Of a DNA stretch of 64,000 nucleotides, positions 43,038 to 62,804 are shown piece by piece. The number at the start of each line of letters is the position of its first letter. Position 1 is the first letter of the stretch. Location: assembly GCA_903960915.1 (NCBI GenBank), contig CAJCCO010000109.1, forward strand, positions 1 to 64,000, read 5' to 3'. The stretch comes from an uncultured beta proteobacterium (GTDB lineage: Bacteria > Pseudomonadota > Gammaproteobacteria > Burkholderiales > Burkholderiaceae_C). A model generated the notes under the pieces. The model was not told the origin of the DNA. It saw only the letters and a list, made by a program, of their open reading frames with translations, and ran no database searches. The position numbers and the translations under genes were made by a program.

Positions 43038-44072
43038 TCAGAACAAGCCGGCTTGGGTCATCAGGTCAGACACCTTTTTACTGTTGAGCTTGGACGGCTC
43101 CACCTTGGGCGATTGCAACTCGGCCAAAGGCACCAGTTGGGGGTGGGAGGCAGCGCCTGTGCCCACGGCATATTCGAAGGAGTCGCCCGTGCGCAAAATA
43201 CCCTGCCCGCCCTTGCCAGTGACCCATTTCACAAAGGCCTGTGCCTGCGCCTGGCGTTTGCTGGAGGCCAGCACGCCGCCGCCAGAAATGCTGACGAAAG
43301 CGCCTGGGTCTTCATTTTTAAAGTAATGCACCCCCAGGTTGTTGCTGTTCTCGCCGGTCTTGGCCTGGTCGGCCACGCGGTAGTAGTGGTAGATGACAGC
43401 GGCGTCCACTTGTCCGGCGTTCACCGCTTTCATGGCCACACCATTGCCTTTGAAAGTGACAGCGTTTTCCTTCATGGCCTTGAGCCAGGCCAGGGTGCTG
43501 GCCTCGCCTTTGAGTTCCAGTAGCGCGCTGACGATGGCCTGGAAGTCTGCGCCCGCTGGCGATGCAGCCCAGCGGCCTTTCCATTCGGGCTTGGCCAGGT
43601 CCAGCAACGATTTGGGCAATTGCGCCGGCGACAGGCTGCGTTTGTTGTAGACAAACACCGTGCTGCGCGCGGCAATGCCGGTCCATCGGCCATGGGCTGG
43701 GCGGTAGTTGGCGACTGTTTGCGCCAGCGTGTCGCCGGCCAACGGCGCCAACAGGCCACGCGAATCAACCAGCGCGATGGCGGGTGAGTTTTCGGTCAGA
43801 AATACGTCGGCCGGAGACGCCGCCCCTTCCTGCACGATCTGGTTACCCAGCTCGGTATCACTGCCATTGCGCAGGGTAACCTTGATACCGGTCTCGGCGG
43901 TAAATGCTTGTGCCCAGGCCTGGGTCAGGCTGACGTGCTGCGCGTTGTAAACCAGAATACCTTCCGGGTTGGCCCCGGTTTGGGCCGCAGACAAAGTGGC
44001 GCTGGCCAGTAAACCGAAAGCCAGTGCCCCGCCGCTGAGGCGACGCACCATCGAAAAAACTGCTTTTCTCAT
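43038..44072 (-). CDS. Iron(III) ABC transporter substrate-binding protein, FbpA-like
   Basis: Signal peptide; 'GILVYNAQHVSLTQAWAQAFTAETGIKVTLRNGSDTELGNQIVQEGAASPADVFLTENSPAIALVDSRGLLAPL'. Confidence 0.94.
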   Translation of the reverse strand: MRKAVFSMVRRLSGGALAFGLLASATLSAAQTGANPEGILVYNAQHVSLTQAWAQAFTAETGIKVTLRNGSDTELGNQIVQEGAASPADVFLTENSPAIALVDSRGLLAPLAGDTLAQTVANYRPAHGRWTGIAARSTVFVYNKRSLSPAQLPKSLLDLAKPEWKGRWAASPAGADFQAIVSALLELKGEASTLAWLKAMKENAVTFKGNGVAMKAVNAGQVDAAVIYHYYRVADQAKTGENSNNLGVHYFKNEDPGAFVSISGGGVLASSKRQAQAQAFVKWVTGKGGQGILRTGDSFEYAVGTGAASHPQLVPLAELQSPKVEPSKLNSKKVSDLMTQAGLF

Positions 44073-44133
44073 TGAATAAACTCACAAGGATGAACGGACA
44101 CCAACGTCCGAATTAACATACCTTCATTCTAAA

Positions 44134-44148
44134 TGAGAACAGTTACTA
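44134..44148. promoter_or_regulatory. Candidate Fur-box-like site upstream of the FbpA-like gene
   Basis: tgagaac-a-gttacta, a partial match to the 7-1-7 TGATAAT-N-ATTATCA pattern, about 60 nt upstream of the start codon. Confidence 0.45.
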
Positions 44149-44202
44149 TTTGCATCAAAGGCAGAAAAAAACCGCCCAACGCGCGCCCCGCGCGCGCTGA
44201 AA

Positions 44203-45645
44203 TTACAAAATTTTGAAGGCCGATTTCATCAAGCGACGCACCAGGACGGGTACTTTGCCGGCAGAAAACAGCGTTGCCACCAAGGAAATTTGCGTGCGAA
44301 CCACGGCCCGCTCATGGCTGAACGCCATAAAGCCGTAATGCCCGTGCGCGTTGCCAATGCCTGAGTTGTTGATGCCGCCAAACGGCAGGTTGCCGTGCAA
44401 AAACTGCATCAGCGCATGGTTGACGCAGGCGCCGCCGGACACGGTGTTCATCAGCACACGGTCAATGTTGGCGTTGTCGCGGCTATAGATATAGAGCGAA
44501 AGCGGCTTGGGACCGGCATTGATGCTGGCCACCACCGCGTTGATGTCGGTGTAGCCAATAACTGGCAACAGCGGGCCAAACACCTCTTCATGCATGATGC
44601 GCGCGTTGCCTGGAATTTGGTCAAGCAAAGTGGGCTGCACAAAACAATCGGCGGTCACCGCCTCGCCCCCGGTGAGGGTACGAGCGCCCAGCGCTTTGGC
44701 ATCATCGAGCAAAGCTTTCACGCGGGAGGTATGACGCGCATTGACGATGTGCGCCAGGTGCGGGCTGTTTTGCTGCTCAGCCAGGCTGGCGCCATAGGCC
44801 CGAGTCAACTCTGCGCGGCACAGGGTGACCCACTGCTCCTTGACACTTTCGTGGACAAACACGTGGTCTGGCGCGATGCAGGTTTGCCCGGAGTTGGCAA
44901 ACTTGGCCCACATGATGTTGGTGGCGGCCAGCTTCAGGTTGGCGGAGGCGTCGATGATGGTAGGACTTTTGCCCCCCAGCTCAAGCGTCACGCTGCTGAG
45001 GTTTTTGGCCGCAGCGGTCATGACATGGCGGCCAATAGCCGGGCTGCCAGTGAAGAAGATGTGGTCAAACGGCAGTTCCAGCAAGGCTTGCGCCACATCC
45101 GCCTCCCCTTCAAAAATGGCCACTTCGTCTTCGCTGAAAATTTCCTGCACCAGCTTGACCATCAAGGCCGACAAATGGGGCGTCAACTCGGACGGTTTGA
45201 GAATGGCGGTGTTGCCCGCCGCAATGGCCGACACCAGCGGCCCCAACGTGAGGTTGACCGGGTAATTGAACGGCCCCACGATCAGGCAGCGCCCACGGGG
45301 CACATATTGCACATGGCTGCGGGTTCCACCGGTCAAAAGCGTGGGCCAGACACGCTTGGGTTTCATCCATTTCTTGAGGTGGCGAATGGCGTCGTTGGCC
45401 TCCACACACACCGGCAAAATCTCGGCCAGATCAACCTCGCCCTGGGGCTTTTTGAAGTCTGCGTAGGCGGCGCGGTACCAGTCCTCGGTATGTGCAATCA
45501 CCGCGTCGCGCAAGCGGCGAATCTTGGCAATACGCTCCAGCGCCGTAGAACTGCGCAAGCGCAGAGCCGTCGCTTCCTGACGCGCAAACACGTCTTGCAT
45601 GCGGGTCTTGCTCACAACAGATTGGGGCGTATCAAGGTTCATCAC
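44203..45645 (-). CDS. Aldehyde dehydrogenase (coniferyl-aldehyde-dehydrogenase-like)
   Basis: 'GPFNYPVNLTLGPLVSAIAAGNTAILKPSELTPHLSALM', 'LELGGKSPTIID', 'NSGQTCIAPDHV', 'HEEVFGPLLPV'. Confidence 0.92.
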   Translation of the reverse strand: MMNLDTPQSVVSKTRMQDVFARQEATALRLRSSTALERIAKIRRLRDAVIAHTEDWYRAAYADFKKPQGEVDLAEILPVCVEANDAIRHLKKWMKPKRVWPTLLTGGTRSHVQYVPRGRCLIVGPFNYPVNLTLGPLVSAIAAGNTAILKPSELTPHLSALMVKLVQEIFSEDEVAIFEGEADVAQALLELPFDHIFFTGSPAIGRHVMTAAAKNLSSVTLELGGKSPTIIDASANLKLAATNIMWAKFANSGQTCIAPDHVFVHESVKEQWVTLCRAELTRAYGASLAEQQNSPHLAHIVNARHTSRVKALLDDAKALGARTLTGGEAVTADCFVQPTLLDQIPGNARIMHEEVFGPLLPVIGYTDINAVVASINAGPKPLSLYIYSRDNANIDRVLMNTVSGGACVNHALMQFLHGNLPFGGINNSGIGNAHGHYGFMAFSHERAVVRTQISLVATLFSAGKVPVLVRRLMKSAFKIL

Positions 45646-45856
45646 TCGGCCTTTAAATAGTTAACTGGCGGGTTGGGTAAAGCTGGAGCGATTACAGCAC
45701 TTTCTGGATGCGGCCTGCATTGGGGAAGCTCCTACTGAACACAGAGCTATGCATCAGCACCAGTTGTCCAGATGCAAAGCCAGGGGAATGATTAATTCAA
45801 AGGTGCAACGGGAATTAAGAAACTTTCAGCCATTTGCTTAGATGCAAGGAATTTTT

Positions 45857-46789
45857 TCATCGAAAACGCGTATCCCCGTTCAATATATCTTCGTATAAAG
45901 CCACATAATTTTCTGCACATTTTTTTGACGAAAATTTGCTGACTGCATACTCTCTGCAGTCCATTGGCGAACAAGACAAGGCGTGCTCCAATGCTTGTTC
46001 GAACTCGTCATCCTTCTCAAACAACGCCCCTACAACATCTGTAATTAACTCCGGGACGGAACCTCTTGGCGTTGCAATGACAGGCGTTCCGGACATGAGT
46101 GCCTCAATCATGACGAGACCAAAGGGCTCATCCCAGTCAATGGGGAAAACTAACGCCTTGGCATCTGCAAAACAGTTCGCTTTTTCAACGCCACCTATTT
46201 CACCCATAAATCGTATGTCGCGGTTAAGACTATCCATGAAGCCGCCGACCTTCAACAAGTCGAGACGATTACCACCTGCAAAGACCATTTTTTGACGAAA
46301 CTTCTTCGCAAGTTCTAAAGCGCGTCTTGCGCCCTTTACACGACGTCGTACTTTGGAAAAAAACAGCAAAAAATCATGCTTACTTTGTTTAAAAATGAAT
46401 TCTTCAGGGTCAATCCCGTTGTAGACAAACCGTCTTAGTCCATGGCGAATGGCATGGTCTGAACTAATTCCCACCGTATGCAAGGGCAACAAATGCAAAT
46501 TGTTAGTGTTGCCGTGGAGTGTGTATACCCAGGGTTTAGAGTAATGTTCCGATGGCGCCCATCCATGAAAATGAACGAAATCAGCATCTTGAGGTACAGC
46601 TAGTAATGCTTGGTGGGCATTTCTGGCAGGAAAACAAGTCACCCCTGGCAAACTGGAGCTGGGTTGGGCTACCAAACTTACCTGGTGCCCCATGCGAACT
46701 AACTCCTTGGCCAACCATTGAACAATTCGCTCAGTCCCTCCATAATTTTTGACAGGTATGCGTGCTTCACTAACAAGACAAATATGCAT
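45857..46789 (-). CDS. Group 1/GT4-type glycosyltransferase in an AT-rich islet
   Basis: 'MHICLVSEARIPVKNYGGTERIVQWLAKELVRMGHQVSLVA', 'FPIDWDEPFGLVMIEALMSGTPVIATPRGSVPELI'. Confidence 0.9.
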   Translation of the reverse strand: MHICLVSEARIPVKNYGGTERIVQWLAKELVRMGHQVSLVAQPSSSLPGVTCFPARNAHQALLAVPQDADFVHFHGWAPSEHYSKPWVYTLHGNTNNLHLLPLHTVGISSDHAIRHGLRRFVYNGIDPEEFIFKQSKHDFLLFFSKVRRRVKGARRALELAKKFRQKMVFAGGNRLDLLKVGGFMDSLNRDIRFMGEIGGVEKANCFADAKALVFPIDWDEPFGLVMIEALMSGTPVIATPRGSVPELITDVVGALFEKDDEFEQALEHALSCSPMDCREYAVSKFSSKKCAENYVALYEDILNGDTRFR

Positions 46790-47252
46790 TTTTCCCTTTA
46801 TTTTTTCCCACCAATGGGCCGACTTGAAGAAAAATTGCTCAATACTCTCTTGTCAAATTCGACATGATCAACAGCGTTTTTTTTGTTGTCAGGCTAACTA
46901 TTTACGATACCTACGAAAAATTTCTAGAGAGAAATATATTTCCTTTAAAAATTATATCCAAATAACAATTATTATAAAAATAGATAAGTTATCTGGCGAA
47001 GACTCCACCCACTCTGTAAGGATCCTGAAAAGCTTTCGCTTACAATGAAAACATGCAACGCACCCAATTCACACCACATCAGGCTATGCACTGCGCAATG
47101 GGTCTGGTCGCGGGTGCGGGTTCGCTGGCTGGTTTTTCAACCACCAAAACGACAACCATTAAAGGCTGACACAGCCCGGTTCGTCGCGCCCCTCCCGGCC
47201 AGACGAGCCGGGCAGATGAAATCCTTGTATTTCAACCATCTGAAAGGGCATC

Positions 47253-48392
47253 ATGAAAAAAATTGGCAATCTGGTCGGCTTGGTAGGCTGGCGTGGCATG
47301 GTGGGCTCGGTCCTGATTGACCGCATGCAAGCTGAAGGCGACTTCGCGCTGATAGAACCGGTGTTTTTCTCCACCTCCAACGCCGGCGGCAAAGCCCCAG
47401 CGCTGGCCAAGAACGAGACCACGCTGAAAGACGCGTTTGATATTTCGGCCCTCATCAAGTGCGACATCATCATCAGCGCCCAGGGCGGCGACTACACCAC
47501 CGAAGTGTTCCCCAAGCTGCGTGCTGCAGGCTGGGCGGGCCACTGGATTGACGCCGCCTCCACCCTGCGCATGGAAAAAGACGCGGTCATCATTCTGGAC
47601 CCCGTCAACATGCCCGTTATTCAGAACGCGCTGACCCAGGGTGGCAAAAACTGGATAGGCGGCAATTGCACGGTGAGTTGCATGCTGATGGGCGTGGGCG
47701 CTTTGTACAAGGCCGGACTGGTGGAGTGGATGAGCACCCAAACCTACCAAGCGGCCTCTGGCGGTGGCGCCCAGCATATGCGGGAACTGCTGACGCAATA
47801 CGGCACCCTGAATGCGGAAGTCAAAGCCCTGCTGGACGACCCCAAGAGCGCCATTTTGGAGATTGACCGCAAGGTGATTGCCAAGCAGCGCGCGCTGACA
47901 GCGTCTGAGATGGCCAACTTTGGCGCACCCCTGGGCGGCTCCCTGATTCCCTGGATTGACAAAGATCTAGGCAATGGCATGTCCAAAGAGGAATGGAAAG
48001 GCATGGCCGAGACCAACAAGATTTTGGGCATGGGCGAGGGTTTCAACTCCGCCGCCATCCCTGTGGATGGCTTTTGCGTTCGGGTGGGCGCCATGCGCTG
48101 CCACAGCCAGGCGCTGACCATCAAGCTGAAGAAAGATGTGCCCGTAGCCGATATTGAAGCCATGATTGCCGCTGACAACCCCTGGGTCAAAGTGGTGCCC
48201 AACACGCGTGAAGCTACCCTGCAGGACCTGACGCCCGTGGCCGTCACCGGCACCATGACCATTCCTGTGGGCCGTATCCGCAAAATGGCCATGGGGCCGG
48301 AGTATCTGGGCGCCTTCACCATTGGCGACCAATTGCTGTGGGGCGCTGCGGAGCCGCTGCGGCGCATGTTGCGGATTTTGCTGGCGGCCTGA
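47253..48392 (+). CDS. asd: Aspartate-semialdehyde dehydrogenase
   Basis: '[39 protein letters not shown]', '[44 protein letters not shown]'. Confidence 0.97.
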
Positions 48393-57487: not shown

Positions 57488-58072
57488 TTGGCGGAGCCCG
57501 TCATGACAGCCCACGCGCTGCGCTACCTGCAGGGTTACCCGCCAGACGTGCTGGCCCAGGTGGCGCAACTGCTCGCAGACAACCGGCTGGGTGAACGGCT
57601 GAAGAAGAAATACGCCCTGGCCCACGCGGTGCGCACCGACAAAGCGCTCTACGACTACGTGCAAGACCTCAAACAAGACTACTTGCGCGGTGCAGAAACG
57701 CTGAGCAAGGTGGCCTTCGACAGCAAGTTGCATGTGGTGCAACACGCGCTGGGCACACACACCACCATCTCGCGGGTACAGGGCAACAAACTCAAATCCA
57801 AGCGGGAGATTCGCATTGCTTCCCTGTTCAAGGACACGCCGCCCGAGTTTTTAAAGATGATCACGGTGCATGAGCTGGCGCACTTGAAAGAACGCCAGCA
57901 TGACAAGGCGTTTTACCAACTGTGCGCCTACATGGAGCCCAGCTACCACCAGCTTGAATTTGATGTGCGCCTGTACCTGACGCACCTAGAGGCCACCGGC
58001 ACGCGCCTGTGGGGCGCCACCACGCTGGACAACGCCAGCCCGGACTCAGCCGACGTTGCACTCCCGCCGTAA
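57488..58072 (+). CDS. YgjP-like/DUF45-type zinc metallopeptidase domain protein
   Basis: 'MITVHELAHLKERQHDKAFYQLCAYMEPSYHQLEFDVRLYL' with HELAHLKE..H motif. Confidence 0.85.
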   Translation: MAEPVMTAHALRYLQGYPPDVLAQVAQLLADNRLGERLKKKYALAHAVRTDKALYDYVQDLKQDYLRGAETLSKVAFDSKLHVVQHALGTHTTISRVQGNKLKSKREIRIASLFKDTPPEFLKMITVHELAHLKERQHDKAFYQLCAYMEPSYHQLEFDVRLYLTHLEATGTRLWGATTLDNASPDSADVALPP

Positions 58073-59341
58073 CACGGCCAGCGCGTCGTTCAGCGCGTAG
58101 TCCATGTCACTTTGCAGCGTGCGTTGCGACTCTTCCATGAAGTCTTGCCACAGCGCGGCGTAGCCCTCCTGCAGCGGCTGGGGCGCGTGGGTCTGAATAA
58201 AGGCCTCGGCCAGGTCTGACTGCAGGCCGCTTTTGCGAATCTTGCGAATCAGGGTGGCGGCCGCTTTTTCGGTCAGGAGAGTTTTGGGCGGGCTGCCAGC
58301 GGCGACACACAAAAAGAGCGTGAGCAGCGAGCCCTCGTCGCTGTGCCCACCGGTGAATTTTTGCCAGACGCCTGAGATCTCGCGCTCAAAGTGATCCACC
58401 TCAGCCAAGCTGTCTTCGAGCCAGAAGTAGCGGCCCATGAAGGCCGGGGTCTGGTCGAACAACTGACGCACCGGCAAGCTTGTGTCCAGAATTTTGGGGC
58501 CATCGGCCAGGATGGAGCGCCACAGCTTGTTCACCACCGCTTGAAAAGCAGGGGGCATGCCCGGCGGCACCAGCAGCTTCAAAGCCAGTGCGGCCAGCGC
58601 GGGTTGACCCTTGGGCTCAGGTTTGTCTGTGGGCTCGGATTGGCCCGCCTTGTGTTTTTTACGCAGCGCGGTGATCAGTTTTTCAAAGCCCACCCAATCG
58701 GGCATGTCCGTGCGTTTGAGTGCCAACATCAGCAAAGCGGTGCGGATCACGGCCTCTCCGTCCTTGCCCGCATCTTCCAGCGCTGCCTCGTACAGCCCCA
58801 GCTGATCGGCCAGCCAAATAGCCGCGTCGGTGACCTGCGCCACCTGGCTGCGTTTGGCCAGCTCTTGCTGGTAATCGGGCAAGCTTTTGAGCGTCCACTT
58901 GGCCAGCACGGGAATCTGATCGTCGCTAAAACCAGCGCGCTCGTTCATGCCGAAATGGCTGTTTTGCGGCATGGCAATCAGCGCCTTGAGCAGGTCTGAG
59001 CCCCCTTTGGAGCGCGACAAAAAGGAGTTGTCCCGCAGCAACACGGCGGCCTGGTGCACATCACCGCCGGTGGCGTGCTCAAGTTGCAAACTCACCAAAT
59101 TAACCAGCCGGTCCCGGGCTTTCTCGAGGTCGGGGCGCAGGAACTCGTTGCCGAAATAACGCGCAATTTGCACCATGCCTTTGGGCGCATCGGTGCAGAT
59201 GGCGTCAAGCTTGTCCTGGTTGATGAGACCGTGCTGCACGCCGTAAGCCAGCGCTTTCTCAAAAAACGGGCGGGCGTCAAACAGCGAGACGCCTGAAGAC
59301 ACGGGAGAAGTGTGGGCAGAAGTGCGGGCAGAGGCGGACAA
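58046..59341 (-). CDS. Uncharacterised ~430-aa protein in J-domain operon
   Basis: Long ORF in the same strand/operon as neighbours with short gaps; no family recognised. Confidence 0.82.
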   Translation of the reverse strand: MSASARTSAHTSPVSSGVSLFDARPFFEKALAYGVQHGLINQDKLDAICTDAPKGMVQIARYFGNEFLRPDLEKARDRLVNLVSLQLEHATGGDVHQAAVLLRDNSFLSRSKGGSDLLKALIAMPQNSHFGMNERAGFSDDQIPVLAKWTLKSLPDYQQELAKRSQVAQVTDAAIWLADQLGLYEAALEDAGKDGEAVIRTALLMLALKRTDMPDWVGFEKLITALRKKHKAGQSEPTDKPEPKGQPALAALALKLLVPPGMPPAFQAVVNKLWRSILADGPKILDTSLPVRQLFDQTPAFMGRYFWLEDSLAEVDHFEREISGVWQKFTGGHSDEGSLLTLFLCVAAGSPPKTLLTEKAAATLIRKIRKSGLQSDLAEAFIQTHAPQPLQEGYAALWQDFMEESQRTLQSDMDYALNDALAVLRRECNVG

Positions 59342-59373
59342 ATGAAAGGGTCTCCAGCGTGGGCTGTACGGGC

Positions 59374-60135
59374 TTAAATGGCCGACTCTTCATCCGACTC
59401 CAGCACCGCAGGCGTAGCCTTGCCACGGTCGGTGTCGCCGGTTTCCACCTTGCCGTCATCGTCGTCTTCGCTGCCTGATGCGCTGTCGTCTTCGTCCAGG
59501 CCCAGGTCATGGGCACGGGCTTTGGCGCGCAGCACAATCAGCATTTCAGAAAACAGGTCCGGGCATTCGTGGCGCAACAGCCAGGCGGCCTGCATCCAGT
59601 CCTGGTCGGCCACTTCGTCAAGCTCCACTCGCGGGCTCACGTAGGCGCTGGCCAGCAGCGCGGCCTCCGACAGCATCTCACCGTCATCTTCGGCGGTGTC
59701 AAACGTACCGCAGCGGGCAAAGGCTTCCACCCGGCTCCATTTTTCAGAAAAATAGTCGGCCAGCGCTTCACTGCCGCCCTCCAAATCACCAATGGCGGTC
59801 AAGAACTCGATGGGGTCAGCGTCTTCGCGAAAGATGATGGCGTTGACCATGCCGCGCAGGTGGGTGCGGGTCAGGTCTTTGTATTGCTTTTCAATCACCA
59901 CGGCGCGTGCAAACTGGGCCGGCGTGACCATGAGGTTGATGACCGATTCTTTGGAATTGTCGTACTCGCGAATCACGGCCAGAATATCTTTGGCAGGCAA
60001 TTGCTCCAGCACCAGCATCAGCGCTGAGTCGCCTTCGGTGTCGGCCAGTTCTACCAGCGCCGACTCGGCGCCCACGATGTCGCCAGCGGCAATCAGGCTT
60101 TGGGTTTTGGTGATCAGGGCCAGGTGGTTTGTCAT
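59374..60135 (-). CDS. Uncharacterised protein with acidic C-terminal tail
   Basis: Start at MTNHLALITKTQSL; tail 'LGLDEDDSASGSEDDDDGKVETGDTD'; 33-nt gap to the downstream gene. Confidence 0.82.
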   Translation of the reverse strand: MTNHLALITKTQSLIAAGDIVGAESALVELADTEGDSALMLVLEQLPAKDILAVIREYDNSKESVINLMVTPAQFARAVVIEKQYKDLTRTHLRGMVNAIIFREDADPIEFLTAIGDLEGGSEALADYFSEKWSRVEAFARCGTFDTAEDDGEMLSEAALLASAYVSPRVELDEVADQDWMQAAWLLRHECPDLFSEMLIVLRAKARAHDLGLDEDDSASGSEDDDDGKVETGDTDRGKATPAVLESDEESAI

Positions 60136-60145
60136 GGGGTTCTCT

Positions 60146-60712
60146 TCAGTCTTTGCGGTCAAAGCCTTGCTCGACCATCCAGTCGGCACCGGCTTCTTCA
60201 CGGGCACGGGCGTCGTCTTCGTCGCCGTCTTCGTCCGCGTTGTAGGCGTTGCGCTCATCGTGTGCGGCTTCGTCTTCGTCCTTGTCGTCGCTGTGGGTGT
60301 CGCCACTCGCAGCGCGCGTCTTGTCGGGGCGGCTGTACATGTACTCCAGCCCGGCCGCCACGCTCATGAACCACTCGCCGGTGGGTTCTTTCACGATCAC
60401 ATCGGCCAGCGCCTGCGCCCAAGGGGTGAGCACCAGCGCATCGGCCAGCACGTCCCAACCGGGAAATTCGTCCGACTCCTGGGTCAGCAAGTGCTCCATG
60501 GCCGCGGGTGATTTGAACTGAAAACCTTGGTGAAACACCACCGCCACCATCTCCGGACTCAGGTCGAGCATGCTGAGCAAAAAACCCAGCTCCTTGCGTC
60601 TTTCGGACAGGCGCTGGCGCAGCACGTCGCGGCCATCCGAGTCAAAGGTCATGTCGTCAATTTCGGCCTGGTAGGCCGAGCGCAGCTCGTGGAAAAAAGG
60701 AGAAATGCTCAT
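60146..60712 (-). CDS. Uncharacterised protein with acidic C-terminal region
   Basis: 'MSISPFFHELRSAYQAEIDDMTFDSDGRDVLRQRLSERRKEL', tail 'DDKDEDEAAHDERNAYNADEDGDEDDA'. Confidence 0.82.
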   Translation of the reverse strand: MSISPFFHELRSAYQAEIDDMTFDSDGRDVLRQRLSERRKELGFLLSMLDLSPEMVAVVFHQGFQFKSPAAMEHLLTQESDEFPGWDVLADALVLTPWAQALADVIVKEPTGEWFMSVAAGLEYMYSRPDKTRAASGDTHSDDKDEDEAAHDERNAYNADEDGDEDDARAREEAGADWMVEQGFDRKD

Positions 60713-60751
60713 GCGGTGGTCGGTTTCAAAATCAAGGGGTCAAAGTCAAAA

Positions 60752-61027
60752 TCAAACGATCTGGCTGAAGTAGTTCTGCCAAATGGTGCGCGCTGTCTCC
60801 AGCGGGTTGTCGAGCAGGTTGCGCCTGCGGTTGTCGTCATAAGCCTGGCGGCGCGCGTCGTCCGAGAGCACCTCATAGGCCTCCTGGACTTGGCGAAAAC
60901 GCTGCGCTGCATCCGCCGCCGGGTTGCGGTCAGGATGGAAAAAAGAAGCTTTTTGCCGAAAGGCTTTTTTAACGTCGGCCAACGAGGCGGCGCTGTCCAG
61001 ACCCAAAGCGGCGTAGTGGTCGGTCAT
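60752..61027 (-). CDS. Short J-domain (DnaJ-like) protein
   Basis: '[62 protein letters not shown]' with HPD motif. Confidence 0.95.
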
Positions 61028-62064
61028 GAGGATGAACGTTCAGCGTTTTCAACGTTTTCAACCAAGGGACGCATGGCAGCGGCGGCGATGTCGAGCGAGC
61101 GCAAACGCAGCGCGGGGTCAAAAATATCGCAGACCAGCATGAATTCATCGGCCTGGGTCACTCGCGCTAACTCGCTGAGGCCACGGCGCACGGTGTCGGG
61201 CCCACCAATCACGGCGGCGGCTAGAAAGTCGGCAATAGCGTTGCGTTCCTGGGGCTGCAATTGCGCCATGTAGTGGGCTTGTGGCGGCTGCAAGCGGCGG
61301 CGACTGCCGGTCAGTATGCCCAAGATGCGCTGGTAGGTGCTGCTGGCCAGGAAATCGGCTTCCTCGTCAGTGGGCGCTGCTATCAGCGGCACGCCAATCG
61401 CCACCCGGGGCTGGGCCAACGTGGCCGAGGGCTTGAAACGGCTGCGGTAAACATCGAGCGCTTGCAACAGCAAGCCCGGTGCAAAGTGCGAGGCAAAGGC
61501 AAAGGACAGGCCGCGCTCAGCCGCCAAGCGGGCAGAGAACAGGCTGGAGCCCAGCAGCCAGATGGGCACATGGGTGCCCGCACCGGGCATGGCCACCAGG
61601 CGCTGGCCCGGCTGGGCATCGCCCAGCAGGTACTGGAGTTCGAGCACGTCACGCGAGTAGTCGTCTTCGCTTTCGACACGGTCACGGCGCAGGGCGCGCA
61701 TGGTGGCGCCATCGGTGCCGGGGGCGCGGCCCAGCCCCAGGTCGATGCGGTCGGGGTACAACTCGGCCAAGGTGCCAAAGGCTTCAGCCACCACCAGCGG
61801 CGCGTGGTTGGGCAGCATGATGCCGCCCGAGCCCACCCGAATGCGCTGGGTGCCGCCCGCAATATGCCCCACCAGCACCGCAGTGGCAGAACAGGCAATG
61901 CCCACCATGTTGTGGTGTTCAGCCAGCCAGTAGCGTTTGAAACCTAGCGACTCGGCATGTTGCGCGGTGCGCAAGGCGACGGCGATGGCGTCGGCCACCG
62001 AGGTGCCCTCGCGCACCGAGACCAGGTCGAGCATGGACAGGGAGATATCTGGAAGTGCTTTCAT
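61024..62064 (-). CDS. LLM-class flavin-dependent oxidoreductase (luciferase-like)
   Basis: '[91 protein letters not shown]'. Confidence 0.95.
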
Positions 62065-62174: not shown

Positions 62175-62417
62175 TCAGGTGTGTGACCCTGGCCGCTTGG
62201 GCACGCTTCCCGTGCGCAGGGGCTTGAGCAGGTCGGACAAGCCATTGTGGTCAATCTCGTGCATGAGCGCCAGCAGTCGGCCAATTTCGCCCTTGGGCAC
62301 GCCTTCGCGCGCAAACCATTGCAGGTAATTGCCGGGCAAATCAGCCAGCAAACGGCCTTTGTATTTGCCAAAGGGCATGGTGCGCGTCACCAACAGTTGC
62401 AGGTCTTCGGGGTTCAT
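62175..62417 (-). CDS. DUF3820 family protein
   Basis: '[47 protein letters not shown]'. Confidence 0.88.
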
Positions 62418-62441: not shown

Positions 62442-62804
62442 TTAGCCACCCGCGCGCTTGACGGTGAATCCCTGCTTCTTGAGGGCCTCCATGACACGCT
62501 CCACATGGTCGCCCTGCACTTCAATCACGCCGTCTTTGACGGTGCCACCCGAGCCGCAGGTGGCTTTAAGTTGCTTGCCCAGGGCGATGAGCGCCTCGCT
62601 CTCCAGGGCCACCCCTTTGACCAAAGTCACCCCCTTGCCGGCGCGGCCCTTGGTCTCACGGGAGACTCGCACGATGCCATCGCCTGCAGGGAGGGGCTTG
62701 GCGGTGCGGCACTGGCACTGGGCTTGGGGTTGGCGGCACACCGGGCACATGCGCCCGCTGTCGGTGGAGTAGACAAGACCGCCAGTGGCTGGGCGAGATT
62801 TCAT
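62442..62804 (-). CDS. SUI1/YciH-type translation initiation factor-like protein
   Basis: 'RVSRETKGRAGKGVTLVKGVALESEALIALGKQLKATCGSGGTVKDGVIEVQGDHVERVMEALKKQGFTVKRAGG'. Confidence 0.95.
   Translation of the reverse strand: MKSRPATGGLVYSTDSGRMCPVCRQPQAQCQCRTAKPLPAGDGIVRVSRETKGRAGKGVTLVKGVALESEALIALGKQLKATCGSGGTVKDGVIEVQGDHVERVMEALKKQGFTVKRAGG

Follow-up and report, generated by a model that had tools for sequence, protein, structure and literature searches.

A distant betaproteobacterial form of the atcJABC J-protein operon

The window, by which we mean the whole 64,000-nucleotide stretch of DNA that was analysed, carries on its minus strand a block of four genes (58046-61027) encoding a short J-protein and three partner proteins, here called J, A, B and C in their order (Table 1). 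Five minus-strand open reading frames, counting the LLM flavin oxidoreductase gene that precedes J, the ATGA sequence in which these two genes overlap, and the acidic stretches quoted by an earlier reading made from the sequence only were all present where that reading had placed them. Against the spacing of 11-40 nt that it gave, we measured 39 nt between J and A, 10 nt between A and B, and 32 nt between B and C. Computed isoelectric points are 4.29 for the A-protein and 4.18 for the B-protein. The exact start of the C gene is uncertain, since the codon is TTG and the first 19 residues are predicted to be disordered.

Table 1. Features of the J-protein gene block and the gene preceding it, in window coordinates
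Feature	Coordinates	Strand	Evidence
MsnO8-family LLM flavin oxidoreductase	61024..62064	-	TIGR03558 1e-123; 4-nt overlap with atcJ
atcJ homologue, 91 aa, J-domain and ~21-aa C-terminal extension	60752..61027	-	Pfam DnaJ 3.7e-21; NF050028 1.5e-14
HPD motif, J residues 31-33	60929..60937	-	sequence; numbering same as in S. oneidensis AtcJ
P-x7-W motif (P75-W83) in the J C-terminal extension, predicted AtcC-docking peptide	60779..60805	-	sequence
atcA homologue, 188 aa, acidic tail ending in GFDRKD	60146..60712	-	hhalign vs gamma AtcA E=1.2e-6
atcB homologue, 253 aa, all-alpha body (1-210) and disordered acidic tail ending in DEESAI	59374..60135	-	hhalign vs gamma AtcB E=6.4e-7; AlphaFold
atcC homologue, 431 aa, all-alpha, TTG start	58046..59341	-	NCBIfam AtcC 1.5e-4; hhalign vs gamma AtcC E=3.7e-7

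A YgjP-like/WLM metallopeptidase-type protein is encoded on the plus strand (57488-58072), convergent on the end of the C gene and overlapping it by 27 nt. Upstream of the block and on the same strand lie genes for a QSregVF_b protein (62175-62417, minus) and a YciH/SUI1-family protein (62442-62804, minus), neither of which was found beside the block in related loci. Elsewhere in the window, positions 44000-48000 have a lower G+C content (50-55%) and include a glycosyltransferase-like open reading frame (45857-46789, minus); this region was possibly acquired. The genome containing the window comprises 3.72 Mb in 146 contigs, and DnaK-family genes exist in it.

Among the five open reading frames, Pfam supplied names for the LLM enzyme and the J-domain only. 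The NCBIfam families of the Atc proteins, known from the four-gene cold-adaptation operon atcJABC of Shewanella oneidensis (Maillot et al., 2019; PMC6715715), gave matches of varying strength: the J-protein aligned through residues 1-87 with the full length (1-93 of 93) of the short cold-adaptation J-protein model, below its curated cut-off; the C-protein matched AtcC through its N-terminal 88 residues, again under the cut-off; the A-protein matched AtcA at 6.2e-3, with 6.9e-7 for the best relative; and a direct NCBIfam search with the window B-protein returned no match. Against the curated cut-offs of the equivalogs NF050028, NF047888, NF047889 and NF047890, the results were 54.3 of 150 bits, 16.4 of 200 bits, no match, and 21.4 of 370 bits, respectively. 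The match to atc is distant, because none of the four proteins reaches its curated cut-off, and, judged by their sequences, the window proteins are homologues outside the curated equivalogs.

Profile-profile comparison assigned the three partners, which the sequence-only reading had been unable to place, to AtcA, AtcB and AtcC. Betaproteobacterial (beta) profiles were built from orthologues in relatives and compared by hhalign with profiles from gammaproteobacterial (gamma) operons located with the AtcC model, the gamma side being shallow (4 sequences). Each beta profile matched its gamma counterpart (Table 1), the six crossed pairs all had E-values of at least 0.16, and the real profiles scored 46-57, while the highest score reached when the columns of each pair were shuffled 40 times was 22.6. 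A and B might still be suspected of being acidic-tailed proteins unrelated to Atc and alike in composition only, as the weak direct NCBIfam match of A and the missing one of B would allow, but the profile matches of A, B and C fall in folded N-terminal parts and outside the acidic tails, neither crossed pairs nor shuffled columns produced a match, and the gene order coincides as well; we consider such a chance likeness highly improbable. The N-terminal halves of beta and gamma AtcC, compared alone, gave an E-value of 2.4e-8, whereas no homology was detectable between the C-terminal parts of either AtcB (E 0.29) or AtcC (E 0.57) by hhalign against the gamma profile of four sequences.

A scan of named genomes with the AtcB alignment found 424 places that encode the protein. 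The closest matches are in Rhodoferax assemblies, which makes a betaproteobacterium of Comamonadaceae type the probable source of the window. Hosts among the best 80 of the 424 include Rhodoferax, Polaromonas, Limnohabitans, Curvibacter and Aquabacterium, the rest being other Comamonadaceae and Burkholderiales. These best 80, together with the window and 10 relatives, make up a set of 91 betaproteobacterial loci that are not all independent, as some of the 10 relatives may duplicate assemblies of the named loci. J, A and B occur together in 91 of 91 loci, window included, and C is present too in 89; the order J-A-B-C is conserved on one strand with short spacings (median gaps of 12, 20 and 18 nt). 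The gene block at the window is therefore more than a chance arrangement, and the proposal that a minimal J-protein is encoded in a conserved operon with dedicated partners was borne out. The HPD motif is present in every one of the 91 J-proteins and P-x7-W in 90 of them. P-x7-W also occurs in all four gamma loci examined (labelled L030-L033), which have the order J-A-B-C and, in three cases, an AtcC that scores over its curated cut-off. The homology, the order of the genes and the conserved motifs were thus all observed directly. Further conserved members were sought upstream of J and downstream of C, where the largest co-directional groups comprised 9 and 5 loci. The distribution of the operon is patchy: of 301 genomes from the family, 48 have AtcB, and of 369 genomes sampled across the class, the window genome is the only one with it.

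Several loci in these sets had features of their own. One Polaromonas assembly (NZ_JACPOF01) has two atcB loci (L040 and L063), each on its own contig, and a single bin likewise contains two (L068 and L072); either these genomes carry the operon twice or sequences were binned wrongly. Among the gamma loci, L033 is a strongly diverged atc operon whose AtcC is 18% identical to that of L030 and has its own acidic tail, representing an intermediate branch.

The LLM oxidoreductase had been read as part of the operon, and the ATGA overlap means that it is probably co-translated with J in the window genome, where the LLM and atc genes may share one transcript. From this one could construct a redox-stress operon of five genes, with the flavoenzyme as the client of the J-protein system. 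The LLM gene, however, adjoins J in the window only (1 of 91 loci), and its orthologues in relatives, 77-80% identical, sit elsewhere, as in a one-contig genome with the LLM gene at 3.34 Mb and the operon at 0.50 Mb, so that we give this idea almost no credence. With linkage in a single locus and orthologues at unrelated positions, the LLM oxidoreductase was rejected as a system component; it is an incidental neighbour of the conserved system.

The acidic tails are features of the families, and gamma AtcA has one too. AtcB ends in EE[SL]A[IL] in all 91 loci and AtcA mostly in GFDxK, while gamma AtcB ends in DDMFSFLD; conserved ends on disordered tails are, we infer, typical of docking peptides. 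AlphaFold predicts an all-alpha AtcC (pLDDT 89.2) and an all-alpha AtcB (pLDDT 80.9) in which residues 233-253 fall below 50, forming the disordered acidic tail. Neither protein had a match in Pfam or in a sequence search of the PDB, and Foldseek against the PDB found no solved structure alike, the best hits having E-values of 0.11 (B) and 1.6 (C) and low TM-scores; the function of B and C is thus not readable from their fold.

In S. oneidensis (Maillot et al., 2019; PMC6715715), where the atcJABC loci are SO_1850, SO_1849, SO_1848 and SO_1846, the small J-protein recruits DnaK to a few dedicated partners, and growth at 7 C requires AtcJ, AtcB and AtcC, with AtcA dispensable; AtcJ carries 31HPD33, and AtcB is a binding partner of AtcC. 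A contact between AtcB and RNA polymerase has also been reported. The system at the window is a conserved, diverged form, from a freshwater betaproteobacterium, of an already known kind, and taken as a whole it cannot be called uncharacterised. It is very probable that the four genes constitute an atcJABC operon of betaproteobacterial type, delivering DnaK to one dedicated place for cold growth. The J-domain of AtcJ would bind DnaK, and its C-terminal extension, with P-x7-W, would dock on AtcC, probably on the conserved N-terminal helical part; AtcC would hold AtcB, and AtcB would link the assembly to its target, reportedly RNA polymerase in Shewanella. The network would in this way direct DnaK to a single site on which cold growth depends, with AtcA as a putative accessory protein. 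What makes the same AtcJ-AtcC-AtcB chain the best reading is that the HPD and P-x7-W motifs are conserved, as is the structure of the operon, and that AtcB and AtcC share their N-terminal regions with the gamma proteins. By homology, binding of the beta AtcJ extension to AtcC and of AtcC to AtcB is likely, as is a role in low-temperature growth; these contacts, the identity of the target and the phenotype in the cold are all carried over from Shewanella.

A DnaK-linked stress system, as the sequence-only reading had suggested, is most likely what the homology to atcJABC points to, but the stresses it named, heat and oxidative, differ from the Shewanella phenotype, which is growth in the cold. 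That reading had also held that it would fall if the proteins belonged to known families with unrelated roles; the families are known, but the role is that of a J-protein system.

A different target is conceivable. The beta branch may have kept the DnaK-AtcJ-AtcC core of an ancestral atcJABC while its lineage-specific C-terminal modules and tail peptides came to dock DnaK on a machine other than that of Shewanella, in which case the role may not be cold growth. The C-terminal halves of B and C that are unmatched in gamma, the ~110-130 additional residues of AtcC, and the differing ends of the tails (EE[SL]A[IL] and GFDxK in beta, DDMFSFLD in gamma AtcB) would all fit such a change. Fast divergence alone can wipe out C-terminal similarity, however, the gamma profiles are shallow, and the operon, the J-C docking motif and the N-terminal parts are all shared with the gamma system; we regard retargeting as unlikely. 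If true, it would make atc a modular chassis for DnaK targeting.

A gene block without annotation, encountered at 424 places of one genome collection in the AtcB search, is now assigned to a DnaK network that has been studied, and a second, strongly diverged atc branch is available for comparison with Shewanella. This comparison suggests a core made up of the J-domain, the P-x7-W peptide and the N-terminal parts of AtcB and AtcC, with the other parts at liberty to vary. The peptides conserved at the tails could serve directly as handles in a search for what the system targets.

The operon at the window resembles atcJABC of S. oneidensis in gene order, in its short J-protein with a ~21-aa extension, in its AtcA-, AtcB- and AtcC-like partners, in the acidic AtcA tail and in its short intergenic gaps. 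It differs in that detectable similarity of its AtcB and AtcC to those of Shewanella or other gamma sequences is confined to their N-terminal regions, in the length of AtcC (431 aa compared with ~297 in S. oneidensis), in the beta tail peptides (GFDRK[DE] on AtcA, DEESAI on AtcB), which are unlike those of Shewanella, and in that its sequences fall far under the cut-offs of the curated Atc families. A dedicated class C J-protein is also found in the HscB-HscA-IscU system, where the J-protein is encoded with its partner and has its own Hsp70 (HscA). The two systems are alike in encoding a dedicated J-protein beside its partner but are unrelated beyond the J-domain, and the atc operon, unlike HscB-HscA-IscU with its HscA, is without an Hsp70 gene. 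A short AtcJ subfamily of beta- and gammaproteobacteria with a conserved PX7W motif was reportedly described by Weber et al. in 2023 (in Environ Microbiol), in a paper on Atc proteins from environmental proteobacteria; precisely this motif is present in the J-protein of the window.
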